This document shows, piece after piece, positions 5,808 to 63,041 of a stretch of 64,000 bases of DNA. The DNA comes from Aliarcobacter lanthieri. GTDB taxonomy: Bacteria > Campylobacterota > Campylobacteria > Campylobacterales > Arcobacteraceae. Location of the stretch: contig NZ_CP053839.1 of the NCBI RefSeq assembly GCF_013201625.1, positions 868,001 through 932,000 on the forward strand, written 5' to 3'. The notes under the pieces are model-generated. The model saw only the letters and a list, made by a program, of their open reading frames with translations. It ran no database searches and was not told the DNA's origin. Positions within the stretch are counted from its first letter, which is position 1; the number at the start of each line of letters is the position of its first letter. A program made the position numbers and the translations under genes.

Positions 5808-5833
5808 TTTTGTTATAATATAATATAACAAAA
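5808..5833. promoter_or_regulatory. Inverted repeat over two overlapping -10 boxes
   Basis: A perfect 10-base dyad TTTTGTTATA/TATAACAAAA with a 6-base loop lies just upstream of the HD-GYP gene. It contains two overlapping TATAAT boxes (5814-5819 and 5819-5824). Its position fits a repressor operator at the promoter; it could also act as a weak terminator for the aminotransferase gene. Confidence 0.4.
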
Positions 5834-5846
5834 TAAGGAAAGTTTT

Positions 5847-8174
5847 ATGAATTGTATTAAAGTATTAGGAAGTAGTGGAAGTAAATCAAAAAATAGTGGA
5901 ACTACTTCATTTCAAATCTCTAAACATATAGTTATTGATGCTGGAAATATAATCAACTCATTAGAAAAAAACTCATTTCAAATAAATCATATTTTTTTAA
6001 CTCATTCTCATTTAGATCATATTTCTGATATTCCTTTTATGTTAGATAATTATTTCGAAGATAGAGTTACTCCTCTTACAATATATGGTTCAGCTAAAAC
6101 TTTGGAAGTTTTAAAAAATAGTATATTTAATAATCAAATTTGGCCAGATTTTTCAAATATAAAACTATTAAATAGTAATCAAAATAGCCTTATTTTTAAA
6201 GAGATAAAAGAAGATGAAGAAATTATTATTGATAAACATACAATTAAGCCAATTAATGCAAACCATATAGATGGTGCTTTTGGATTTATTGTTACAAGGG
6301 CTAAAAAAAGCTATTTAATAAGTGGAGATACTTTTATCAATGATAATATAGTTGAGTACCTAAATAATGATTTAAGTATAAAAGCACTTTTTATTGAATG
6401 TTCTTTTCCAAATAGATTACAAAAATTATCAGATATTAGCAGACATTTAACACCAAATAGTTTAAATAGCACTCTTATAAATTTGAAAAGAGATGATATT
6501 CAAATATATTTATATCACTTAAAATATGAATACATTACAGAGATAAAAGAGCAAATCCAAGAGTTAGGTATTTTAAAAAATGGTGGTAAAGTTTTAGAAG
6601 ATGGGGATATAGTAGATATAAATAGTTTAAAAGTTACTTCTACTATTCAGGATATTGAAATATTTGATAGATTTATGGATATAAATTTAAAACTAGCAAG
6701 TGAACAAGATAAAGAGCAATTATATGAGATGATTTTAACTTTGATTAGAGATCTTACAAAAAGTGATGCAGGAACACTATATTTAATAAGTGAAGATAAA
6801 AAATATCTTGATTTTAAAGTAGTTCAAAATAATAGTCTAAATGTCTTTTTAGGAACAAAAGAACAAAAAATATCTTGGAACTCTCTACCTTTATATTTAG
6901 AAAATGGTAAACAAAATAGAGAAATGGTTGCTGTTGTTAGTGCTTTGGATAATAAGATAATAAATATTCAAGATGTTTACAACTCAACAGAGTATAATTT
7001 TGAAGGTACAAAAAAGTTTGATAACACTACAAACTACTGTTCAAAATCTATGTTGGTTATTCCTTTAGTAAATCATGAAAATGATGTAATAGGTGTAATT
7101 CAATTAATAAATAAAAATATAAAAGAGAAAAATAGCTTTTTCACTTCTGATGACGAAAAAATCTTAAAAGCTTTATCTTTTCAAGCAGCAATGGCTTTAA
7201 CAAATACAAGATTGATTGCTAGTTTGGAAGAGTTTTTAGAAGCATTTGTAAGTGCTATTGCAAATGCTATTGATGCAAAATCAAGACATACTTCTACTCA
7301 TATTACAAAGATGTCAAAGTTAGCTCCATTAATTGCAAAATCAATAAGTGCTGATGATACAATATATAAAAATACTGTTTATTCAAAAAATGATTTAAAA
7401 GAGATAGAACTAGCTGCCAAGCTTCATGATGTTGGAAAAATCTCTATTCCTGAATGGGTAATTGACAAATCAACAAAACTTCAAAAATTACTAGATGGTT
7501 TTGAATTAATTAAATTAAGAGTTGAAGTAATAAAAAGAGATTTAAAAATAGAGTTCTTAGAAGACAAAATAAGTAAAGAAGAGTATCAAACTAAACTAAA
7601 GGCTATTGAAGATGATTTAGATTTTATAAATACATCAAATAAAGGTGGAGAGTTTATGAGTGATGAAAGTATAAAAAGAGTTGAAAAATTATCTTCATAT
7701 ATCTATATTTTAAACAATCAAGAAGAAAAACTTTTAAATGCAGATGAGATATATAACTTATCTATTAGAAAAGGAACTTTAACTTTAGAAGAGAAAGATA
7801 TTATGAACTCTCATGCAAAACTATCTTATGATATGTTAAGTGCTTTGCCTTTTCCTAAAAAATACTCAAATATTACACACATAGCTATAAATCACCATGA
7901 AAAATTAAATGGAAAAGGTTATCCAAGAGGTTTAAGTTCAGAAGATTTGGTATTAGAAGATAGGATTCTAATCTTAGCAGATATTTTTGAAGCATTAACT
8001 TCTATTGATAGACCATATAAAGGAATAAAAAAATTAAGTGAAGTATTTAAAATATTAGATTTTATGGTAAAAGATGGTGAAATAGATGGGGATTTACTAG
8101 AGTTCTTTAAAAATAGTAATGCTTTAAAAGAGTATTGTAAAACAGAACTTTTACAAGAGCAGTTAGATGTTTAA
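5847..8174 (+). CDS. Metallo-beta-lactamase (cAMP PDE II-like)/GAF/HD-GYP fusion
   Basis: This 775-residue cytosolic protein joins three modules. Residues 1-235: a metallo-beta-lactamase fold of the class II cyclic-nucleotide phosphodiesterase type, with the metal motif THSHLDHISD near 52-61 and later SGDTF and YLYHLKYEY elements. Residues about 275-460: a GAF domain. Residues about 465-770: an HD-GYP c-di-GMP phosphodiesterase with LHDVGKI (near 526), NSHAKLS, NHHEKLNGKGYP (near 680) and a DIFEALTS...RPYKG block, so the metal ligands look intact. About 95 helical, charged residues are inserted between the HD motif and the helix leading to HHE, making that spacing far longer than usual. AAGGAA precedes the ATG. 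The gene overlaps the next by 8 bases, implying coupling to a cyclase. Confidence 0.88.
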   Translation: MNCIKVLGSSGSKSKNSGTTSFQISKHIVIDAGNIINSLEKNSFQINHIFLTHSHLDHISDIPFMLDNYFEDRVTPLTIYGSAKTLEVLKNSIFNNQIWPDFSNIKLLNSNQNSLIFKEIKEDEEIIIDKHTIKPINANHIDGAFGFIVTRAKKSYLISGDTFINDNIVEYLNNDLSIKALFIECSFPNRLQKLSDISRHLTPNSLNSTLINLKRDDIQIYLYHLKYEYITEIKEQIQELGILKNGGKVLEDGDIVDINSLKVTSTIQDIEIFDRFMDINLKLASEQDKEQLYEMILTLIRDLTKSDAGTLYLISEDKKYLDFKVVQNNSLNVFLGTKEQKISWNSLPLYLENGKQNREMVAVVSALDNKIINIQDVYNSTEYNFEGTKKFDNTTNYCSKSMLVIPLVNHENDVIGVIQLINKNIKEKNSFFTSDDEKILKALSFQAAMALTNTRLIASLEEFLEAFVSAIANAIDAKSRHTSTHITKMSKLAPLIAKSISADDTIYKNTVYSKNDLKEIELAAKLHDVGKISIPEWVIDKSTKLQKLLDGFELIKLRVEVIKRDLKIEFLEDKISKEEYQTKLKAIEDDLDFINTSNKGGEFMSDESIKRVEKLSSYIYILNNQEEKLLNADEIYNLSIRKGTLTLEEKDIMNSHAKLSYDMLSALPFPKKYSNITHIAINHHEKLNGKGYPRGLSSEDLVLEDRILILADIFEALTSIDRPYKGIKKLSEVFKILDFMVKDGEIDGDLLEFFKNSNALKEYCKTELLQEQLDV

Positions 8175-10326
8175 AATAAATTTTATAAAATTCTTTATTT
8201 ACTCTTCTTTATCTCTTTTTGTATCAGTTTTCTTAACTTTTATATATATTTTTTTTCCAAATTTACTGGACTCTTTTGATAATAGGATAAGAGATTCATA
8301 CTTTTTATTTAGAGGAGAGATACCTACTAGCCAAAATGTAGTAATAATAGATATAGATGAAGCTTCTATAAAAGCTTTTGGTCAATGGCCTTGGAGTAGA
8401 GATAAATTATCAAAGATTATAGAAAATCTAACTTTATCAAATATTTCTGTTGTTGGAATGGATATTGTTTTTGCAGAAGAGGATAGAACTTCCCCAATAA
8501 AAATAGCTAAAAAACTAAATATTAATGCTACTTTAGAAGATTATGATTTAGAGTTTTCAAAAACTATAGAAAATTCACCTGTTATTTTAGGATATAGTTT
8601 TGATTTATTAAATAATAGTAGTAAACAAGAGCCATCAATTCCAGCAGTTTTTGTTGAAAAGAATAGACAAAATGATGAAAATTTTATAATAGAAGCAAAG
8701 GGTACCGTTTTAAATCTTCCAATCTTACAAAATAGTGCATATTCAAGTGGCTTTTTTAATATTATTCCAGATGAGAGTGGAGTTATACGAAGTGTGCCAC
8801 TTTTTATATCTTTTGATGATATTTTGTATCCATCTTTAGCCTTAGAGATGATTAGAGTTTTAAATGATACTCAAAGAGTTTTTATAAATTATGATGAAAA
8901 TGGTGTTTCTAATATAGTTCTAGATGATATTGTAATACCAACAGATAGATTTGGAAGAATGTTTATAAACTATCGTGGGGCTGAGAAGAGTTTTAAATAT
9001 TTTAGTGCAAAAGATATATATGAAAATAACTTTAATATTGAAGATATAGAGAATAAAATAGCACTTTTTGGAACGAGCGCAGCTGGATTGTTTGATTTGA
9101 GAGCAACACCTTTTGAGTCTGTTTTTCCTGGTGTTGAGGTACATGCAAATATTATAGATAATATTTTGGAAGGTGATTTTATACATAAAGCTTCATATTT
9201 AGATGGTGTAAATATTGTTTTAATATTTTTATTATCTTTTCTTATTGTTATTTTTATAACCTATAGTCATTTTTATCTAAAACCTATTGTATTTTTTATA
9301 TTTATATTTTCTTTTTTAGTAGCAAGTTACAAGCTTCTTTTTAATTTTGGAGTTGCTATAAATATAGTATTTCCTTTTCTAGCCATAGTTTTTGGTGCTA
9401 TTTTATCTTTGATTTTTGACTATTTTTACAATATAAGAAGTGAAAAAGCTGTAAAAGCAAAGTTTGCTTCAAAAGTTTCAAAAAGTGTTATGGAAGATAT
9501 TTTAAAAAATAGTAATAAAGATGAGTTTAGTGCTAAAAATAAAGAAGTTACTATATTTTTTAGTGATATTAGAGGTTTTACAAATATTTCAGAACAACTT
9601 AATGCAAAAGATTTAATAAAGTTTTTAAATAGATATATGGAGCCTATGAGTGAGATTATTATTAAATATCAAGGAACAATAGATAAATTTATCGGAGATG
9701 CTATTATGGCATATTGGAATGCTCCAATAGATATAAAAAATCATGCTGATATGGCTCTAAAAGCTTCACTAGAACAACTAAAAGAATTAGAAAAACTAAA
9801 TCTTGAACTAAAAAAAGAGAATTTACCACAAATTGATATAGGAATAGGACTAAATACTGGAGAAGTAATTGTAGGTGAAATGGGAAGTAGTTTACGAAGT
9901 GATTATACTGTTATTGGAGACAGTATAAATTTAGGAAGTAGGGTTGAAAGTTTATGTAAATATTATGGTTCAAAGTTAAATATTACAAACTTTACAAAAG
10001 ATAAATTAAAAGAAGAATATACACTTAGGTTTTTAGATTTTGTAATGGTAAAAGGGAAAAATGAGCCAGTTGAAATTTGGCAAGTTTTAGGATATAAAGA
10101 TATAAATTATGATTTAAAAGATGAATTAGAACTTTATCATAGAGCTATAGATTTATATAAAAATTCAGATTTCGTAGAAGCTTTGGAAATTTTCAAAAAA
10201 TTAGAGAATATAAATAGTAAAATAAGTAAAAAAATATATAAAATATATATTCAAAGATGTGAAGAATTTATTAAAACTCCACCAAAAAACTTTGATGGAG
10301 TTTATGAACATAGTACAAAATCTTAA
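8167..10326 (+). CDS. CHASE2-domain class III adenylate cyclase
   Basis: This 719-residue inner-membrane protein starts with a membrane helix (about 7-30), then a periplasmic CHASE2 sensor (about 35-330: DSYFLFRGE, VVIIDIDEASIKAFGQWPW, FPGVEVHANIIDNIL). Two or three membrane helices follow (about 345-420), then a class III cyclase domain (about 455-630). The cyclase has metal aspartates in FFSDIRGFTN, the adenine-selecting lysine in DKFIGDAIMAYW, and YTVIGDSINLGSRVE with the transition-state Asn and Arg. This predicts cAMP synthesis. The C-terminus is a short TPR-like helical tail. The start lies inside the preceding gene and lacks its own strong ribosome site, so it is probably coupled to the MBL/HD-GYP gene. 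Confidence 0.9.
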   Translation: MFKINFIKFFIYSSLSLFVSVFLTFIYIFFPNLLDSFDNRIRDSYFLFRGEIPTSQNVVIIDIDEASIKAFGQWPWSRDKLSKIIENLTLSNISVVGMDIVFAEEDRTSPIKIAKKLNINATLEDYDLEFSKTIENSPVILGYSFDLLNNSSKQEPSIPAVFVEKNRQNDENFIIEAKGTVLNLPILQNSAYSSGFFNIIPDESGVIRSVPLFISFDDILYPSLALEMIRVLNDTQRVFINYDENGVSNIVLDDIVIPTDRFGRMFINYRGAEKSFKYFSAKDIYENNFNIEDIENKIALFGTSAAGLFDLRATPFESVFPGVEVHANIIDNILEGDFIHKASYLDGVNIVLIFLLSFLIVIFITYSHFYLKPIVFFIFIFSFLVASYKLLFNFGVAINIVFPFLAIVFGAILSLIFDYFYNIRSEKAVKAKFASKVSKSVMEDILKNSNKDEFSAKNKEVTIFFSDIRGFTNISEQLNAKDLIKFLNRYMEPMSEIIIKYQGTIDKFIGDAIMAYWNAPIDIKNHADMALKASLEQLKELEKLNLELKKENLPQIDIGIGLNTGEVIVGEMGSSLRSDYTVIGDSINLGSRVESLCKYYGSKLNITNFTKDKLKEEYTLRFLDFVMVKGKNEPVEIWQVLGYKDINYDLKDELELYHRAIDLYKNSDFVEALEIFKKLENINSKISKKIYKIYIQRCEEFIKTPPKNFDGVYEHSTKS

Positions 10327-10330
10327 AAAA

Positions 10331-11644
10331 TTAAAATGAGTAGTAAATATTTGATTTTACTACATATTTATCATATTCATAAATATTTTGATTTGATTGG
10401 TTATTTATATATCTAAAATTTGCTCCAATAGATAAGTTTTTATTTATAGAGTGAAGAATTCCTAAGTCATAAATTATCTTATCATTTTGTCTTTTGTCTT
10501 TATAGAGAAGTGGCTCATTCTCTTTATAAATATCTTTGTATAGTTCAATACCATTTATTAAAATAGTATTTTTTGTAAGTGGATACATATTATCATATTT
10601 TAGACTTATGAAGTCCTTATCTACATTATAGTGTTTTCCATCATCTTTATCATCTGTTCCAAAATTTAAGCTAAAGCTATTCATACCAAAATTTTGTGTA
10701 AGTAATACAAGTGTATTTTGTAACTCATAGTAAGTAGAATCTCTAAATTCATACTGATTTTGTTTAAAATCTTTTTTTATAATTTTTATTTTTGATTTAT
10801 ATAATAAATTTGCATCAATTTGATAATCAAAAGATGGAGTTAAAATATAATTACTTAAATATGAGCTATTATCCAACCAAACATAGTTATAATCAAAAGC
10901 TAAAGATAATTTTGATTTTTGTGAATAATATGAAAGTGCTGTTCCAAAAACTACTAAACTTAAATCATTGTATTTTTCATGATTATATTTTTGCATATAA
11001 CCAGAAAACTTATTGTTTAATGTTAAATTATCTTTTATTTTATAAGTGTGATTTAAAGATAAAATATATTCACTAACCTGATCACTTTTTTTATCTTCAA
11101 TACTTAAAGGGATATTCCCCCAATATACAAGATCATCATTTGAATTATTATTTACATTAGAATCAAACCCATATCCAAAGCTTAAAGTTGTTTTTATAAA
11201 GTTTTTCTGAGATTTGTTATTAAGTGAATTTAGAGTTAATTCTATATTTTTTTTAACATTTTCAGGTAAAGTTGGCTCTTTTAAAACTTCTTCATATAAA
11301 ATTCTTGCTTCTTCATATTGTTTTAGTTGAAAATATGTTTGAGCAAGTTCTAGTTTTATTCTATTATTCTTTGGGTTTTCTTTTAGCATATTTTTATATA
11401 AAGATAAAGCTTCTGAAAATTTACCTATTTCATAAGCACTTCTTGCAAGTATAAAAGTTGTATCAGATGAAAGCTTATTTTCTTTTGTATATTGTTGAAG
11501 TAATATATAACTATCTTGAAATAGCCTATTTTGATAACTTTCAATAGCTTTTTGGAAATGTTCATTTGAATAATTTTCATTTGCTAAAAGAATATTACTT
11601 AAGATAAAAAGATAAGGGAGTTTTTTTAATAATTTATTTTTCAT
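10331..11644 (-). CDS. TPR plus outer-membrane barrel, Slam/DUF560-like (type XI secretion)
   Basis: This 437-residue exported protein has a signal peptide (about 1-21, ending LLA), TPR repeats at about 25-140 (such as ALSLYKNMLKENPKN and EARILYEEVLKE), and from about 150 a beta-barrel of alternating amphipathic strands ending in SNIYYSF with a terminal Phe. The barrel opens with TTLSFGYGFDSNVNNNSN, the G-Y-x-D-S-N-x-N-N signature of DUF560 surface lipoprotein assembly modulators. N-terminal TPRs plus such a barrel is the Slam/T11SS architecture. It follows by 14 bases a gene whose product ends in a TbpB-like domain, the usual cargo signal for these exporters. The assignment is from architecture and motif only; another TPR-porin is the alternative. 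Confidence 0.65.
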   Translation of the reverse strand: MKNKLLKKLPYLFILSNILLANENYSNEHFQKAIESYQNRLFQDSYILLQQYTKENKLSSDTTFILARSAYEIGKFSEALSLYKNMLKENPKNNRIKLELAQTYFQLKQYEEARILYEEVLKEPTLPENVKKNIELTLNSLNNKSQKNFIKTTLSFGYGFDSNVNNNSNDDLVYWGNIPLSIEDKKSDQVSEYILSLNHTYKIKDNLTLNNKFSGYMQKYNHEKYNDLSLVVFGTALSYYSQKSKLSLAFDYNYVWLDNSSYLSNYILTPSFDYQIDANLLYKSKIKIIKKDFKQNQYEFRDSTYYELQNTLVLLTQNFGMNSFSLNFGTDDKDDGKHYNVDKDFISLKYDNMYPLTKNTILINGIELYKDIYKENEPLLYKDKRQNDKIIYDLGILHSINKNLSIGANFRYINNQSNQNIYEYDKYVVKSNIYYSF

Positions 11645-11658
11645 ATTTTTTCTTATTA

Positions 11659-12927
11659 TTACTTTGATGCATCAAATGAACTATTGATTATATTGCCATT
11701 ATCATCTATATCTATTGTTCCTAATACTTTATTCATTTCACTTCCATAGAAGTTCCCATTTACAATAGCACTAATACCACCAGAATAACCATATCCATCA
11801 CCAGTAGTACTAAAACCATATGGTGTTACTTCTCCTCCAAAATTAGCTGTATATTGACCAATATTAAAATTCCCTTCTATGCTACTAATTCCTCCTCCTA
11901 TAGATAAATTAAAACTTATATTACCTGTTGTATTTAATCCATATACTCCTCCACTAAAATTTAAATTAGTAATATCACTATTTTCTATTAATCCTTGAAT
12001 ATAATTTGAATCTGTCATTATAGAATTTGGATCAATTGGATTTGGATCAATTGGATTTGGATCAATTGGATTTGGATCAATTGGATTTGGATCAATTGGA
12101 TTTGGATCAATTGGATTTGGATCAATTGGATTTGGATCAACTCTAATATCATTAATTTTATTTTGTAACACTTTATTTGTTTTTGCATTATTCTTTTCAT
12201 CATTTAATGCTAATAAATTTGTATCCCAATCTCCCCAAGAGTTTTGGTCATCAAAATGCTCTTGAATATCTGTTTGTTCATTTAAAGCTAAAGGTGAACT
12301 TGGATTATTATTAAAATTATCAAGATTTATTTTATTTGGATTATTAGTATTTAACTTTTCTTCTATCTCATCTAAGATATTATTTTGAAGTGTTTGAGCA
12401 TTACTTGGCTGTTGATTATCAAAAACATTTGTATATTTTCCTGCTAAAACATCAACTAAAATACCATTTGAGAATACTGTTATAGCACCTTGTGTACATA
12501 TGATTCTATTTTCATCACCATAAAATTCTGTACCTCTAATTCCAATAGTTGCATTTTTTGTTTTTAATTTAAATTTTGTAGGATTTACTTTTCCAATTTG
12601 CCCAGTTATAGTATGAAAAGCACCTTTTGGAATACTAAATTCAGTTTTTGCACCATCTTTATCAGCATCTGAATAATAATAATCATCTATTTTTAAAATA
12701 GACTCTTTTCCTATAGTTACAATAGTATTATCAATAAAAGTTATTTTAACTTTTGAGTTGACTTTTGCCTCTATAATATCTTTATTTTTTATAATATCTC
12801 CAAAATTTAATTTAATAGAGTTATTATCTCTTTTTACAAAAGCTTCACCTTCTAATAAAGTAATATTTCCTATATTTGCAAATAGTATATTAGAAAATAA
12901 AAATAAAACAATAAATAATTTTTTCAT
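11659..12927 (-). CDS. FecR-domain protein with DPNPI repeats and TbpB-like C-terminal barrel
   Basis: This is a 422-residue exported protein. The ATG at 12927 is chosen over an upstream frame extension because AGGAAA lies just before it and the sequence then begins with a signal peptide MKKLFIVLFLFSNILFAN without a lipobox. Residues about 20-165 form a FecR domain (GDIIKNKDIIEA, TFIDNTIVTIG, ATIGIRGTEFYG). A polar linker carries eight DPNPI/DPNSI units (about 262-302). The C-terminal 110 residues are Gly- and Asn-rich with alternating strands and a segment INNGNFYG-like, actually IVNGNFYGSEMNKVLGTIDI, which resembles the GxFYGxxxxxxGG-F pattern of TbpB-type barrels. Probably a periplasmic or secreted cargo of the downstream barrel protein. 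Confidence 0.7.
   Translation of the reverse strand: MKKLFIVLFLFSNILFANIGNITLLEGEAFVKRDNNSIKLNFGDIIKNKDIIEAKVNSKVKITFIDNTIVTIGKESILKIDDYYYSDADKDGAKTEFSIPKGAFHTITGQIGKVNPTKFKLKTKNATIGIRGTEFYGDENRIICTQGAITVFSNGILVDVLAGKYTNVFDNQQPSNAQTLQNNILDEIEEKLNTNNPNKINLDNFNNNPSSPLALNEQTDIQEHFDDQNSWGDWDTNLLALNDEKNNAKTNKVLQNKINDIRVDPNPIDPNPIDPNPIDPNPIDPNPIDPNPIDPNPIDPNSIMTDSNYIQGLIENSDITNLNFSGGVYGLNTTGNISFNLSIGGGISSIEGNFNIGQYTANFGGEVTPYGFSTTGDGYGYSGGISAIVNGNFYGSEMNKVLGTIDIDDNGNIINSSFDASK
12024..12140. repeat. 15-bp tandem repeat encoding (DPNPI)n
   Basis: About eight direct copies of the 15-base unit ATTTGGATCAATTGG run without mismatch apart from the ends. On the minus strand they encode eight DPNP/S-I units in the linker of the FecR-domain protein. 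The unit length is a multiple of three, so copy-number change would alter linker length but keep the frame. This is a coding minisatellite, not a CRISPR (no spacers). Confidence 0.95.
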
Positions 12928-13078
12928 AATTTTCCTAGCGGTATTTTTATGGAAAAATAACATAACTATGCTTCTTTTTAGATAAATGTATAAAAATTTA
13001 TTTACTTTCTATTAATTAAATTTTAGATAAAATCGCCCCAAACTTAAATAGTTTAAATTTAAATATTAGGGGTGTTTA

Positions 13079-14248
13079 TTGAGTATAGGTCCTATTACAC
13101 TAACAAATGATGTTGTTGCTCTAACAGGTGTTCAGTTATCTACTTATGTTGTTATTGCTGCAATAATTTTAGTTTTATTTACAACATTAAAAGAATCAAA
13201 CCATAATGATGTTTTTCCAATATCTGTTACAAATGAGTTAAAAGGTTTAGGTATTTTAACTGTTGTTTTTGCACACTTTGCATATATGAAAGTTACAAAT
13301 AGTGAGTTTTTATTCCCACTTTCAATTATTGCTGGTGTTGGAGTTGATTTATTTTTATTTATGTCTGGATTTGGGCTAACAGTTGGTATGTTAAAAAGAC
13401 CAATGAAAGCTATTGATTTTTATAAAAAAAGAGTTATAAAAATATTTATTCCTTTCTGGATAGCTTTAATTATTATGTTTATTGCTGATGCTATTTTTAT
13501 GGATAAAACTTATTCTATTGGATATGTAATAAAATCAATGCTTGGTTTTTTCCCTACTGCTGATGGATTTGGTGATGTAAACTCTCCATTTTGGTATATT
13601 ACTTGGATGATAATGTTTTATCTTTTATATCCATTATTCTTTTTCAAAGATAGACCATGGTTAACAGCACTTATATTAGCTGTTATTGCAACAATTATTG
13701 GTACATTTAATATTTTTGATTTAGGAAGTAATTGGTTACATAGACTTCATACAGTAGCATTTTCTATGGGTATTGTTGCGGCTTGGCTTTTACAAGTAAA
13801 AGAAGGACAAGAGAATAAATTTGTAAATTTTGTAAAAAACTTTAGAGATAACTCAATTGATATGAGATATATCATTATGGCAATTATGTTTGTAATAGTA
13901 TTTTATGTATCACAAAGAACAGGTGCAAACTCTTGGCCAGCTCTAAAATCAATTTTAGGACAAGGTTTCTTTGTAGAACAAATAATGTCAATAGTTATAA
14001 TGATGGCATTTATTGTTATATTTGTACTTAAAAAAGTTGATAGTAAATTCTTAACAATGTATGGTGTTTATTCTTATGAAGTATATTTGATTCACTGGCC
14101 ACTTATGGCAAAATATGATATCTTCTTTGTATATTTACCTGCTTGGGCTGCAGTTCTTGCTTGGTTAGTAACATTTATATTAGTAAGTATGTTATTACAA
14201 AGACTTGTAACACCAGTTAGTAAATTTGTAGATAAAATTGCAAAATAA
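13079..14248 (+). CDS. Acyltransferase family 3 membrane protein
   Basis: This 389-residue protein has about ten membrane helices and the acyltransferase-3 pattern: an early VFAHFAYM segment with the conserved histidine (about residue 63), a following GVDLFLFMSGFGL motif, a KKRVIKIFIPFWIA region (R/K-x-x-x-x-P), and late VYSYEVYLIHWPL. Such proteins O-acylate surface glycans, peptidoglycan or lipids. The start is a TTG at 13079, chosen because AGGGG (about 13068-13072) lies six bases upstream. A TAAAAT-like -10 lies at about 13028. A terminator hairpin follows directly. Its convergent neighbours encode a second O-acylation pair (SGNH-like and MBOAT), but shared substrate is only inference. 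Confidence 0.85.
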   Translation: MSIGPITLTNDVVALTGVQLSTYVVIAAIILVLFTTLKESNHNDVFPISVTNELKGLGILTVVFAHFAYMKVTNSEFLFPLSIIAGVGVDLFLFMSGFGLTVGMLKRPMKAIDFYKKRVIKIFIPFWIALIIMFIADAIFMDKTYSIGYVIKSMLGFFPTADGFGDVNSPFWYITWMIMFYLLYPLFFFKDRPWLTALILAVIATIIGTFNIFDLGSNWLHRLHTVAFSMGIVAAWLLQVKEGQENKFVNFVKNFRDNSIDMRYIIMAIMFVIVFYVSQRTGANSWPALKSILGQGFFVEQIMSIVIMMAFIVIFVLKKVDSKFLTMYGVYSYEVYLIHWPLMAKYDIFFVYLPAWAAVLAWLVTFILVSMLLQRLVTPVSKFVDKIAK

Positions 14249-14270
14249 AATTAGGGCTTTGCCCTAATTT
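14248..14270. terminator. Bidirectional terminator hairpin
   Basis: AAATTAGGGC, loop TTT, GCCCTAATTT, flanked by A-rich and T-rich runs. It lies between convergent genes and overlaps the end of the acyltransferase-3 gene. Confidence 0.85.
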
Positions 14271-15255
14271 ATTCTATAAATATTCCAAAATCTTCTGGAA
14301 TATCTATATCAAAATCTTCAAAAATCTTTGCAAAATATAAGCTTCCAAATTCTTGTTTAATATGAGATGAATCTATAAAATTATCATCATCTTCTGTTAT
14401 ACTATTATCTGTCATAAAATCCCAATAAGGGAATATTTGTGCTATTTCATTTTTCCATTTATCAAAGATATCAAGTTTATTTTCTTCTTCTATAAGTTTT
14501 AATTGAGAAGTATGAATCGCTGTAGTAAATACTTTTAGTTTTACATTATATTGATTACATAATTCAACCATTTTTTTGTAATAATCAAAGTTTTTTTCTC
14601 CTAAAACGTGAAAATCTTTATATACTTTTTTATAGTAATTTAGAGTTCCTTTCCACATATGTTCTTTATTATTGTTTTTTATAACTTTTTCTTGATGATA
14701 TAAAGTTATAGCACCATTTTCATAAAATAAATTTCTATCATTATTTGGAATAACATATTTTAGATATTTGAATACAGGTACTTCTAAATAGTGTTTTACT
14801 TGGTAAAAAAAGTTAAATCCATGGTCAAAAATATCTTTATTAAAATCGCTTCCATTTTCTTTTAAATCATCATTAAAAGTATAAAAATTTAGTCCAATAA
14901 TAACATTATGTATAGGTAAATTTTCTAAAGAATGTTTTAAAAAATAGTATTGCTCTTCTAAAGTTGCAAATTGTAAACCTAAATTATATACTTTGTCTTG
15001 AGTATATTTTTCTATATCTTTTGGATTTAAATAGTGAACTCTACTTCCACCTAAAAGAATTGTATTTGGTTTTAATTCATTCAATTCTACATATTTTTGT
15101 GTTCTATATGCTAAGGCTGTATCTTTTCTTAAACCTATATCAAATTTATTATTTATTCCCACTGGATCAATTATGTATCTGATAAATAAGCCAATTGAAA
15201 ATAGAATAAAAGTAAATAAAATTGTTAAAAATATAAATCTTTGATGTTTTTTCAT
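14269..15255 (-). CDS. Membrane-anchored SGNH/AlgJ-like partner of MBOAT
   Basis: The 328-residue protein has one N-terminal membrane helix (about 8-28) and an extracytoplasmic domain. NTILLGGSRVHYLNP (about 65-79) looks like the G-S/D-S-R block found in SGNH-like proteins that accompany MBOAT acyltransferases, and VIIGLNFYTFND resembles the second conserved strand. The late SSHI segment (DDNFIDSSHIKQEFG, about 291-305) could supply the catalytic Asp/Ser-His. Likely role: moving an acyl group onto a glycan in the periplasm with the upstream MBOAT. The MBOAT gene ends 8 bases before this start, so the two form an operon. The exact family was not verified, and the catalytic serine is uncertain. 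Confidence 0.65.
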   Translation of the reverse strand: MKKHQRFIFLTILFTFILFSIGLFIRYIIDPVGINNKFDIGLRKDTALAYRTQKYVELNELKPNTILLGGSRVHYLNPKDIEKYTQDKVYNLGLQFATLEEQYYFLKHSLENLPIHNVIIGLNFYTFNDDLKENGSDFNKDIFDHGFNFFYQVKHYLEVPVFKYLKYVIPNNDRNLFYENGAITLYHQEKVIKNNNKEHMWKGTLNYYKKVYKDFHVLGEKNFDYYKKMVELCNQYNVKLKVFTTAIHTSQLKLIEEENKLDIFDKWKNEIAQIFPYWDFMTDNSITEDDDNFIDSSHIKQEFGSLYFAKIFEDFDIDIPEDFGIFIE

Positions 15256-15263
15256 CTTTAGCC

Positions 15264-16646
15264 TTAAAATTGAAAATATAAAAATTCTTTTGCACTTGAA
15301 AAAGTAAAAAGAGAAGCAGATATTAGAATTGCTGTATATAAAGTATATTTTAAATTTGGTTTAAAATTTTCTGCAATTTGTGCACTATTTTTAAATCCTA
15401 AAGCTAAAATAAGCCCTAAAAGTATATAGAAACCTTGAAATGTTACATCGATATGATAGAGTTCACTAAATTTTAAATTTGTAAAATCAAAGAGAGTTTT
15501 TGTTACATACCAAGCATCATTAAAATCTTTTGCTACAAATAGAGTTCTTGTAACTATAAGTCCTACAAACATTAAAAACCAAGCTACATAGAAATTCATC
15601 TGTAAATTTGCTTTTTTCATCATATGTGCAAAAACTACAAAAAGACCATTTAATAATCCCCAAACTATAAAAGTCCAGCCAGCTCCATGCCAAAATCCAG
15701 ATACAAAAAATGTAATCATAATATTTAAGTAGATAATCCAAATTACATTTTTATTCCCACCTAAACTTTTATATATATAATCTCCTAAAAATCTACTCAA
15801 AGTTATATGCCATCTTCTCCAGTAATCAGCAAAATTTCTTGCTTTATATGGGCTATTGAAGTTTTTTGGTAAGTCAATATTAAACATTTTTGCAATTCCT
15901 ATTGCCATATCAGCATATCCAGAAAGGTCAAAATAGTATGATAGAACATAAGAAGTTGAAGCATACCAAGCTTCTATCATTGTTAGTTTTTGAGCATTAT
16001 CAAAACCATATTGTGCATAATCTGTAAGAGGATCTCCAATTAAAGTTTTTTTTGCTAATCCTATTGCAAATATAAAAAGTCCTAAAGATATGTTTTCCCA
16101 TTTTATATAACTTCGCCATTTTAGAGCAAATTGAGGCATCATCTCTTTATGATGAACTATTGGTCCCATTAAAAGTTGTGGAAAAAATGTAATAAAAAGT
16201 GAGTAATTTAAAAAACTAAACTCTTTTACTTCACCTCTATAATTATCAACTAAAAATGCAATTTGTTGAAAAGTAAAGTAACTAATTGCTAAAGGTAATG
16301 CTAAATGAAGTAAAGGAACATCTTTATTAAAAGCCCAGTTAAAATTTACTATAAAGAAATCAGCGTATTTAAAATATCCTAAAAGAGCAACATTACCTAT
16401 TATTCCAAAAGTTAGCATAGATTTATTGGATTTTCTACCTAAAGATTTTCCTACATAAAAATTGAAAATCATACTTCCTAATATTAAAGGAAGATAAATA
16501 GGATTCCACCATGAGTAGAAAAATAAACTTGCAAATACAAGTATTGTTTTACTTAAAGTTATTAATTTTAGAGAATTTAAATAAAAATATAAAATTAAAG
16601 TTAATGGTAAAAATATCAATAAAAATTCATATGAATTAAAAAGCAC
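15264..16646 (-). CDS. MBOAT O-acyltransferase (AlgI/DltB-like)
   Basis: The 460-residue polytopic protein opens with MLFNSYEFLLIFLPLTLILY, the usual AlgI/PatA-type start. Central motifs are FADYWRRWHITLSRFLGDYIY (broken here: FADYWRRWHITL then SRFLGDYIYKSLGG, about 268-292) and SGFWHGAGWTFIVWGLLNG with the catalytic histidine (about 317-335). About ten membrane helices are visible. MBOAT proteins of this group transfer acetyl groups to polysaccharides. The next gene, 8 bases downstream, encodes a probable SGNH-like partner. No polysaccharide synthesis genes are adjacent, so the acceptor is unknown. Confidence 0.92.
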   Translation of the reverse strand: MLFNSYEFLLIFLPLTLILYFYLNSLKLITLSKTILVFASLFFYSWWNPIYLPLILGSMIFNFYVGKSLGRKSNKSMLTFGIIGNVALLGYFKYADFFIVNFNWAFNKDVPLLHLALPLAISYFTFQQIAFLVDNYRGEVKEFSFLNYSLFITFFPQLLMGPIVHHKEMMPQFALKWRSYIKWENISLGLFIFAIGLAKKTLIGDPLTDYAQYGFDNAQKLTMIEAWYASTSYVLSYYFDLSGYADMAIGIAKMFNIDLPKNFNSPYKARNFADYWRRWHITLSRFLGDYIYKSLGGNKNVIWIIYLNIMITFFVSGFWHGAGWTFIVWGLLNGLFVVFAHMMKKANLQMNFYVAWFLMFVGLIVTRTLFVAKDFNDAWYVTKTLFDFTNLKFSELYHIDVTFQGFYILLGLILALGFKNSAQIAENFKPNLKYTLYTAILISASLFTFSSAKEFLYFQF

Positions 16647-41344: not shown

Positions 41345-42546
41345 TGAAAGATTTGATTTTACCAATAGTATGTAGTAAATATAATATTTCTTATATTATT
41401 TTTGATAAAGATTTAAAAATTGTTGATTTTGCAAAAAATATGCAAGATTTTGTTGAAATTGATCTAAAAATAGAGAATAACTCTGATATTAGAGATTTCT
41501 TTTGGGAATTTGTAGGATTTGAAGATTCTTTAGATGAATTATATTTATCAAAAAAAGAGTATTTACTTATTCCAATGATTTTTAGAAATAATATATATTA
41601 TGATGTAAATATAGAAATTTGTTTTATTAAAGGTCAAAAATATTTTATTGCAATGTATACAAAGCAACAAAAAAATTCAATTGAATATTTTCAAACTATT
41701 CAAAAAATCAATGAAACAAATTTTAAAAACTATATAGAAAATAAAACAAATAATAAAATCAATGAAAAGTTAATTAGTTTTCATATTGATAAAGATGGAA
41801 TTATTAAAAAAGCAAATAGTGCTTGTACTTGTTTTTTAGGTTTAGAAGAAAAGGATCTCATTGGTAAACACTTTTCTTTATACTTTTTTTCAAGAAATAA
41901 AAAAATAGAGTTAAATAATCATAGTAATATTCTAAGAGCTGAAAGTAAAGATGGTATTGAAGTGTTTTTTCATGCTGAATCTATAAGTATAAATAATGAT
42001 GTATCATCAGATAAGATTATAGTTTGTCAAGATATAACATATTTGAAGAAAATAGAGATTGAACTTGAATATGCTGTAAATCATGATAGTTTAACTGGAC
42101 TACCAAATAGATTATATTTAATTAAAAAGATAGAAGAAAATATAGAAAAGTCAAAAAATAATAAACTTTTTTTTGCTTTATGTTTTATTGATTTAAATAA
42201 GTTTAAAGCAGTAAATGATAATTATGGTCATCATGTTGGTGATATGCTATTAAAACATGTAGGGGAAGTTTTAAAACACATTGTAAGAGAAGAAGATACA
42301 GTTTCACGACTAGGTGGAGATGAATTTGTCGTATTATTAGATAGTTTAGAATCTATAGATTACTTAGAAAAAACGGTTTTAAGAATTAAAGAAGTTTCTA
42401 AAAAAATGCCATTTCATTATAATGAAGATATAGTTATTGAGCTATCATTTAGTTTTGGAATTAGTATTTATCCAAGAGATGGTAAGGATGCTAAAACACT
42501 AATTGATAGTGCTGATAAAGAGATGTACTTAAATAAAATTAGGTAG
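41344..42546 (+). CDS. PAS-GGDEF diguanylate cyclase
   Basis: The 400-residue protein lacks membrane helices. Residues about 5-110 form an N-terminal region that may be a divergent PAS domain, about 140-235 a PAS domain (SFHIDKDGIIKKANSACTCF, GLEEKDLIGKHF), and about 240-400 a GGDEF domain: HDSLTGLPNRLYLI, FIDLNKFKAVNDNYGHHVGD and RLGGDEFVVLL. REED, five residues upstream of GGDEF, matches the RxxD inhibitory site. It should make c-di-GMP in response to a PAS signal. The ATG overlaps the GTPase stop (TAATG), implying coupling. It may be an output or a controller of the GTPase module. Confidence 0.93.
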   Translation: MKDLILPIVCSKYNISYIIFDKDLKIVDFAKNMQDFVEIDLKIENNSDIRDFFWEFVGFEDSLDELYLSKKEYLLIPMIFRNNIYYDVNIEICFIKGQKYFIAMYTKQQKNSIEYFQTIQKINETNFKNYIENKTNNKINEKLISFHIDKDGIIKKANSACTCFLGLEEKDLIGKHFSLYFFSRNKKIELNNHSNILRAESKDGIEVFFHAESISINNDVSSDKIIVCQDITYLKKIEIELEYAVNHDSLTGLPNRLYLIKKIEENIEKSKNNKLFFALCFIDLNKFKAVNDNYGHHVGDMLLKHVGEVLKHIVREEDTVSRLGGDEFVVLLDSLESIDYLEKTVLRIKEVSKKMPFHYNEDIVIELSFSFGISIYPRDGKDAKTLIDSADKEMYLNKIR

Positions 42547-61929: not shown

Positions 61930-63041
61930 ATCTCAATTCCATTATCTAATAAAATTTTATTTCTACCACTTTGTTTTGCTCTATAAAGTAAAGAATCAGC
62001 TTTTTGAACAGTATTTTCATAAGTTGGATATTTATTTCGTATAGCTACTCCAGCTGAAAATGTAAGTTTTATTTTTTTATCTTTATAGATAAAGCTATTT
62101 TCTGTAACAACACTTTTAATCCTTTTTAAAAACATTAAAAGTTCTCTATCAAGATTAAAATGAACAACTGCTATAAATTCTTCACCACCATAACGCCCAA
62201 CTAAATCATGATCTCTTATACTTTTATCTAAAATTTTTCCAAATGTGGAAAGTACTACATCGCCACCTTCATGTCCATAAGTATCATTTATATTTTTAAA
62301 ATGGTCAATATCGAAAAATACTACAGCATATTGAGTTTGTAATCTACTATATGAACTTTCAATTTTAGTAACTTCTTCATTAAAAGCTTTTCTTGTAAGA
62401 ATTTGAGTTAAAAAATCTTTTCTGTTTTCTGCTTTTGTTCTACTTAGTTCATTTTCTAAACTATTAATCTTTTCTTCTAACTCTTCTATTTTAGATTTTC
62501 CACTTTCAAGTTTATTTGTTACATTAGTCATCTCTTGTTCTATAGAAGTAGCAGCTAAAACTAATTCATTTTGTAATTTTTCTAGAACTCCAACTCCACC
62601 ATTTCTTAAATCTATAGCTTGGATTTTTTCTTTTATATTTAAAACCTTTTTAGTTCCATTACCACTACTAAAAATAGCTTCATTGAAATATTCTTCCATA
62701 AGTAAAACAAGTTTTGATATATCTTCTGTTTTTTGAATAACAAGTTTTTTATCTTTTTCAAATCGTTGTATAATTAATTTTTCAATTTTAATTTGAATAT
62801 TTTTTTCAAAAATAAGATTTGGATTGTTTTTTAATTCATCAAATAAAATATCTATATTATTATCATTGTCTTGGCTAATTGATGGAGTAATAGATTGTTT
62901 TAAAATATCAACTATAACTTCTACATTATGAGGATGAACTCTTTTTAGTAAAAGCTGTATAATTTTTTCTAAAGAATCAATCTTATTTTCAATAGCTTCA
63001 TTATATTCTATATCATTTAATTGGCTTAAAAAATTTTTCAT
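61926..63041 (-). CDS. GGDEF-domain diguanylate cyclase
   Basis: The 371-residue cytosolic protein has an N-terminal helical region (about 1-150) of unknown role and a coiled coil (about 150-205, LESGKSKIEELEEKINSLEN). The GGDEF domain (about 205-365) contains FLTQILTRKAFNEEV, FFDIDHFKNINDTYGHEGGD and GRYGGEEFIAVV. RDHD five residues before GGEEF fits the RxxD inhibitory site. It should be active in c-di-GMP synthesis. GGTAAAAAT precedes the ATG with a weak ribosome site. Confidence 0.9.
   Translation of the reverse strand: MKNFLSQLNDIEYNEAIENKIDSLEKIIQLLLKRVHPHNVEVIVDILKQSITPSISQDNDNNIDILFDELKNNPNLIFEKNIQIKIEKLIIQRFEKDKKLVIQKTEDISKLVLLMEEYFNEAIFSSGNGTKKVLNIKEKIQAIDLRNGGVGVLEKLQNELVLAATSIEQEMTNVTNKLESGKSKIEELEEKINSLENELSRTKAENRKDFLTQILTRKAFNEEVTKIESSYSRLQTQYAVVFFDIDHFKNINDTYGHEGGDVVLSTFGKILDKSIRDHDLVGRYGGEEFIAVVHFNLDRELLMFLKRIKSVVTENSFIYKDKKIKLTFSAGVAIRNKYPTYENTVQKADSLLYRAKQSGRNKILLDNGIEI

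Follow-up and report, generated by a model that had tools for sequence, protein, structure and literature searches.

A candidate cAMP-to-c-di-GMP converter in Aliarcobacter lanthieri: a phosphodiesterase-type MBL-GAF-HD-GYP fusion gene overlapping a CHASE2 cyclase gene

INTRODUCTION

Few enzymes are known to link cAMP with c-di-GMP, and cAMP signaling has been little studied in the phylum Campylobacterota. The window, a stretch of 64,000 nucleotides from the Aliarcobacter lanthieri genome, contains two adjacent genes that together could supply the steps of making, reading, acting on, and erasing such a signal. The initial annotation of this DNA had proposed that a cyclase makes cAMP and that its partner, a fusion of a metallo-beta-lactamase (MBL) domain, a GAF domain, and an HD-GYP domain, may degrade cAMP, may sense it, and acts on c-di-GMP, so that the pair could convert one messenger signal into the other. 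The question is how far the sequences of these proteins, and their distribution among relatives, are consistent with that proposal.

RESULTS

A fusion gene overlaps a class III cyclase gene

The features of the gene pair are as follows.

5847..8174, + strand: MBL-GAF-HD-GYP fusion gene, 775 amino acids (open reading frame and domain matches)
5847..6650, + strand: MBL domain of the class II cAMP phosphodiesterase type, residues 1 to 268, with HSHLDH at 53 to 58, H140, D161, and H224
6711..7199, + strand: GAF domain of the cyclic-nucleotide-binding type, residues 289 to 451 (Pfam and profile comparison)
7110..7157, + strand: NKFDE motif of the fusion GAF, N422, K423, F432, D436, and E437 (alignment)
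7227..8171, + strand: HD-GYP domain, residues 461 to 775, its HD half set apart from its GYP half by an insert of ∼100 amino acids; residues 633 to 749 match HD_5
8167..8174, + strand: overlap of the fusion gene with the cyclase gene, 8 bases
8167..10326, + strand: CHASE2 class III adenylate cyclase gene, 719 amino acids
8230..9246, + strand: CHASE2 sensor domain of the cyclase, residues 22 to 360 (Pfam)
9535..10068, + strand: class III cyclase catalytic domain, residues 457 to 634, with adenine-type Lys and Thr

The annotated combination of an HxHxDH MBL domain of the class II type, a GAF domain, and an intact HD-GYP domain in one protein was borne out by Pfam matches (PDEase_II, 52 bits against a cut-off of 23.7; GAF, 46.8 bits; HD_5, 112.9 bits) and by the HSHLDH, HD, HHE, and GYP residues. 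The 8-base overlap held as well, the two open reading frames running from 5847 to 8174 and from 8167 to 10326 on the + strand. The cyclase matched CHASE2 at 200.3 bits and Guanylate_cyc at 85.8 bits, and no second class III cyclase was found in the 2.28-Mb genome. The catalytic residues of the cyclase (two metal Asp, Lys, Thr, Asn, and Arg) are intact, and they are kept in all 58 relatives' rows having a residue, out of 59 rows aligned. In class III cyclases, Lys and Thr select adenine; the adenine-selecting Lys named in the annotation is indeed present, in the motif DKFIGD.

The fusion and cyclase genes abut, in either order, among relatives, and on this basis they probably form one operon. 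Gene spacing was tight in both orders, with gaps of −14 to +4 in all 14 MBL-first pairs having the cyclase downstream and mostly +2 in the 20 pairs having it upstream. Immediately before the fusion gene, at 5808 to 5833, lies a perfect palindrome with 10-base arms and a 6-base spacer, which may have arisen by chance in AT-rich DNA. It was dropped as a candidate operator because, by eye, it was not seen upstream of nine relatives' genes and because shuffled sequence matched it often (27 of 100 window shuffles with up to 3 mismatches).

The MBL domain resembles class II cyclic nucleotide phosphodiesterases

PDEase_II was the best MBL-type Pfam model for the fusion, scoring 55.7 bits with the MBL domain alone, and it matched all 32 MBL members given (E ≤ 0.001). 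A profile built from these 32 of the 91 MBL rows, picked for spread (alignment A2), was compared with solved structures. The best match was 3′,5′-cyclic-nucleotide phosphodiesterase 1 (PDB 4ojv; 3e-16), the yeast enzyme PDE1, compared to 3.6e-9 for RNase Z. The MBL domain aligns over most of its length, and the alignment spans HPHLDH and HVFNDLIWPD of 4ojv, corresponding to HSHLDH and SIFNNQIWPD in the window (that is, HxHLDH and N..IWPD). However, the solved chain of 369 residues is covered at 107 to 309 only, and that chain has no GAF or HD-GYP part. The metal ligands were nearly invariant among relatives: the first His was kept in 90 of 91 rows, His140 in 91 of 91, and Asp161 and the last His (His224) in 90 of 91 each.

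An NCBIfam RNase Z model also matched 32 of 32 MBL members; in the window, matches to the NCBIfam RNase Z models were far below their cut-offs, and by those models the MBL domain is therefore not an RNase Z. The anti-Pycsar protein Apyc1 was matched weakly by 2 of the 32 members. Predicting the MBL structure from one sequence gave a low-quality model (mean pLDDT, 43). By the sequence comparisons, the MBL domain falls within the class II cAMP phosphodiesterases, and cAMP would be its substrate.

The GAF domain is of the cyclic-nucleotide-binding type

A profile of 24 GAF domains, taken (alignments A1 and A3) from 24 of the 49 MBL-first fusions and picked for spread, matched PDE5, CyaB2, and PDE2 best, all ahead of the GAF domain of PmGH. 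The NKFDE motif, which marks cyclic-nucleotide-binding GAF domains in the cited parts of two papers (PMC11977230, PMC4411481), is intact in the window and in 31 of the 49 MBL-first fusions whose genome has the cyclase; 6 of those 49 carry the variant NKYDE. The MBL-last fusions, though cyclase linked, have NHFDM or a similar sequence in 7 of 7 aligned rows, and none of the 7 has an intact NKFDE.

The contacts to cAMP described for the GAFb domain of CyaB2 include Arg291 (to N1 of cAMP), Thr293, Ile308, Asp356, and Asn359 (PMC4411481, in the part cited). In the MBL-first rows, the Asp356 position was kept in 50 of 50, the Thr293 position was T in 44 of the 46 having a residue, and the Ile308 position was V or I in 45 of 46. 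The Asn359 position was mostly Thr, and the Arg291 position was Gly or Ala in all 46 rows having a residue. Taken as a sequence-based assignment, the GAF ligand is likely a cyclic nucleotide, and a preference for cAMP over cGMP is suggested because of the neighboring cyclase.

The rest of the genome was also considered for cAMP receptors. An Arg-Ser phosphate cradle is described for CRP and Bd1971 in the cited part of one paper (PMC6717892); by eye, none of the five cNMP_binding domains of the window's genome has such a CRP cradle. The only other Pfam GAF domain of the genome is in a GGDEF protein, lacks the NKFDE motif, and scores ∼2 bits with the fusion GAF profile. The fusion GAF is therefore the best candidate for a cAMP receptor in this genome.

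The HD-GYP domain belongs to one of two MBL-linked lineages

The HD-GYP signature is well kept among relatives, with HH and the GYP Tyr in 73 of 73 rows each and HD in 48 of the 48 rows having a residue (25 of the 73 rows are gapped at the first HD His). In a tree made by a quick method from 79 of the 80 HD-GYP hits, a lineage with the ∼100-amino-acid insert, to which the window's domain belongs, separated from a short lineage, with a support of 99 for this main split. The insert lineage also holds HD-GYPs from Gemmatimonadetes, Vibrio, Aeromonas, Cupriavidus, and Leptospira records, none of which matched over the MBL part, and the short lineage includes another, unlinked HD-GYP of the window's genome (placement support, 87 to 92). 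Several inner branches were weak. MBL-linked members occurred in both lineages, as did unlinked HD-GYPs, and MBL domains have therefore probably joined HD-GYPs on more than one occasion.

The genome encodes 20 GGDEF and 9 EAL domains, so c-di-GMP is in use; a PilZ effector domain was not found in it. The putative substrate of the HD-GYP domain is c-di-GMP; among solved structures, its profile matches both V-cGAP3 and PmGH. Two further GGDEF domains are found in the window, at 42079 to 42537 (+ strand) and 61956 to 62417 (− strand).

The MBL domain accompanies the cyclase across the phylum

Mapping of the MBL domain and the cyclase covered 397 genomes from this phylum. There were 95 MBL matches at E ≤ 2.3e-24, in 91 of the 397 genomes, and of the 76 genomes carrying a class III cyclase (E below 1e-15), 74 also had the MBL. 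As for the two exceptions, in one (G367) the contig stops just past the cyclase, and the other (G209) has a separate GAF-HD-GYP. The window-type GAF-HD-GYP occurred in 50 of the 397 genomes, 48 of which have the cyclase. When 87 MBL genomes were sorted by whether a GAF-HD-GYP lay next to the MBL or in fusion with it and by whether the genome had a cyclase, 68 had both, 2 had the GAF-HD-GYP only, 5 had the cyclase only, and 12 had neither. All of these counts ignore shared ancestry. The sorting covers 91 MBL rows, without three weak cyclase hits (G057, G110, and G270) and without one MBL (L082, in G233) that was lost to the overlap filter yet is counted in the 74 of 76. Separately, 89 MBL regions were collected; the window's own genome was excluded from this set, as were the MBL fragments of G355, G168, and G388. 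Independent contrasts of GAF-HD-GYP against cyclase on a tree of 90 of the 91 rows gave just four pairs on well-supported branches, too few for a test; the trend went the expected way, with median p values of 0.5 and 0.25.

The module is assembled in several ways. Among the 45 frames of full-fusion size, a cyclase was nearby in 36 (largest gap, 2.7 kb) and on the same strand in 35; at these 35 loci it was downstream in 14 and upstream in 21. The arrangements found were MBL-GAF-HD-GYP followed by the cyclase (the window type), the cyclase followed by MBL-GAF-HD-GYP, the cyclase followed by GAF-HD-GYP-MBL, three separate genes for the cyclase, the GAF-HD-GYP, and the MBL (L090, L109, L112, L115, and L116), and the cyclase adjoined by the MBL alone (L051 and L117). 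Tandem stand-alone MBL genes near parts of the module were seen in two genomes (L095, at 7498 to 9038, and L106).

Losses were also found. In one genome (G168, locus L133), which gave no hit for a class III cyclase, the fusion has an in-frame loss of MBL residues 137 to 221, including the zinc ligands H140 and D161, next to an intact GAF-HD-GYP of 59% identity. This deletion fits an MBL domain that acts on the cyclase product. Two observations point the other way: another genome (G323) kept the whole fusion and has no class III cyclase, and a lone MBL occurs in the 12 genomes where no class III cyclase was detected (for example, at L062, L064, and L071). The lone MBL genes weigh against an MBL role confined to cAMP. 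The natural variants, with separate genes, a reversed fusion, or the broken MBL of G168, are ready controls. Outside the phylum, one scan of genome contigs gave a single related locus, a GAF-HD-GYP without an MBL. Among plasmid records, 308 matched, none of them over 80% of the fusion, and the MBL domain alone was unmatched.

The gene pair lies in a wider cluster

Two genes on the opposite strand follow the cyclase.

10331..11644, − strand: TPR plus SlipAM-type barrel protein, 437 amino acids, part of the wider cluster
11659..12963, − strand: FecR-domain protein, 434 amino acids, part of the wider cluster

A FecR gene was within 6 kb of the cyclase at 49 of 58 cyclase loci, and the barrel gene was at 33 of 58. 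In the window's FecR protein, a string of PNPID repeats links the FecR part to the C-terminal part. Beyond it lie genes that, named by sequence appearance, presumably encode an acyltransferase-like membrane protein (13079 to 14248, + strand), a companion (14269 to 15255, − strand), and a membrane O-acyltransferase-like protein (15264 to 16646, − strand).

DISCUSSION

The CHASE2 domain, with probable input from the neighboring FecR and TPR/barrel proteins, would control the cyclase, which would make cAMP. Binding of cAMP to the fusion GAF would then switch on the HD-GYP domain, leading to the breakdown of c-di-GMP, and hydrolysis of cAMP by the class II phosphodiesterase domain of the fusion would end the signal. 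That the gene pair is such a self-resetting converter of cAMP into c-di-GMP signals is the reading we favor, with modest confidence. The domains, the intact catalytic residues, the gene linkage, and the assembly in several arrangements are observed; cAMP as the ligand of the GAF and the substrate of the MBL, c-di-GMP as the substrate of the HD-GYP, and activation as the sign of control are the parts we infer. The conversion proposed in the initial annotation is supported in part: its domain calls stand, and its links are backed by class II phosphodiesterase membership, GAF type, co-occurrence with the cyclase, and the precedent of Tlr0485 as reviewed (PMC8846402). The missing counterpart of the CyaB2 Arg291 contact and the 12 genomes with a lone MBL and no detected class III cyclase weigh against it. 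A broader proposal, which we put forward tentatively as possible rather than probable, is that cAMP is a private messenger here. A single CHASE2 cyclase would make it, a single GAF domain would read it, and the protein with that GAF would also erase it; the removal of c-di-GMP would be its main or only output. Reader, effector, and eraser would then be one polypeptide, assembled on two or more occasions out of distinct HD-GYP lineages.

Other explanations are based on the same domains. The GAF may regulate the MBL phosphodiesterase, in a cAMP feedback like that of mammalian PDE2 and PDE5, with the HD-GYP otherwise controlled or acting alongside and no conversion taking place. The GAF profile is indeed nearest to GAF domains that control cyclic nucleotide phosphodiesterases, and in the MBL-first fusions the MBL adjoins the GAF. 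However, the GAF stays on the HD-GYP protein when the MBL is encoded apart, the MBL-last fusions place the HD-GYP between the GAF and the MBL, and the sole relative outside the phylum in the contig scan has GAF and HD-GYP without an MBL; this explanation is unlikely. The link between the MBL and the cyclase could also be indirect, the MBL being a phosphohydrolase, nuclease-like or of another kind, that acts not on cAMP but on, for example, an RNA, another cyclic nucleotide, or a product of the HD-GYP. The presence of the MBL in nearly all cyclase genomes, its place beside the cyclase even where no GAF-HD-GYP is alongside, its internal deletion in G168, and a match to PDE1 that beats the match to RNase Z all speak against a non-cAMP enzyme, which we regard as rather improbable in spite of the stand-alone MBL genes in the 12 genomes, the RNase Z model matching every member (with the window far under its cut-off), and the weak Apyc1 matches.

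Two further alternatives concern the HD-GYP. Its profile has its best solved match in V-cGAP3 (4e-32), named a 3′3′-cGAMP phosphodiesterase, ahead of PmGH (5e-25), so the substrate could be 3′3′-cGAMP or another cyclic dinucleotide instead of c-di-GMP. This is very improbable: a SMODS cyclase domain was not found in the window's genome, compared to 20 GGDEF domains, and the insert-type clade that holds the window's domain also includes HD-GYPs of Vibrio, Cupriavidus, and Aeromonas. Finally, cAMP might inhibit the HD-GYP, in which case the circuit would raise c-di-GMP upon firing of the cyclase, and relief from the inhibition would come from the MBL of the fusion. Although the sequence does not reveal the sign, the review marks each of its listed cAMP-responsive examples (Tlr0485, Lcd1, and Bd1971) as activated (PMC8846402, in the part cited), and inhibition is very improbable.

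Parts of this converter have published counterparts. In the cited part of a 2022 paper, Campylobacterota cyclases are CHASE2 proteins, mostly clustered with genes for a phosphodiesterase able to hydrolyze cAMP, FecR, and TPR, and a single pathway is suggested; CRP-like proteins of the phylum often lack an accompanying cyclase (PMC9239204). The same four gene types are adjacent in the window, whose FecR and TPR genes fit that cluster. However, the second gene is called there a phosphodiesterase able to hydrolyze cAMP, section 9 of that paper names no HD-GYP part, and neither "GAF" nor "lactamase" came up when the words of its main text were searched (PMC9239204). The closest likeness in architecture, going by a review's description, is Tlr0485, a GAF-HD-GYP protein whose hydrolysis of c-di-GMP is activated by cAMP; like the fusion it has a GAF linked to an HD-GYP with cAMP as the activator, but no cAMP phosphodiesterase in the same chain is described for it in the review (PMC8846402). 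In Leptospira Lcd1, a GAF-GGDEF protein in the same review, a GAF also reads cAMP and controls c-di-GMP (PMC8846402), but Lcd1 makes c-di-GMP whereas the fusion HD-GYP would degrade it. Bd1971 of Bdellovibrio differs further, combining a cNMP-binding domain of the CRP type as sensor with an EAL enzyme, and a cAMP phosphodiesterase domain is not among its parts as described in the portion cited (PMC6717892). A cAMP-activated GAF-HD-GYP (Tlr0485), Bd1971, Lcd1, and the cluster of cyclase, phosphodiesterase, FecR, and TPR genes are already published. No description of an MBL-GAF-HD-GYP fusion was recognized in the open-licence literature searched, which was covered mostly as titles and the starts of abstracts. 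What appears to be new is the joining of a putative cAMP phosphodiesterase to a c-di-GMP phosphodiesterase that would read cAMP, assembled repeatedly and found near-constantly with a cyclase.
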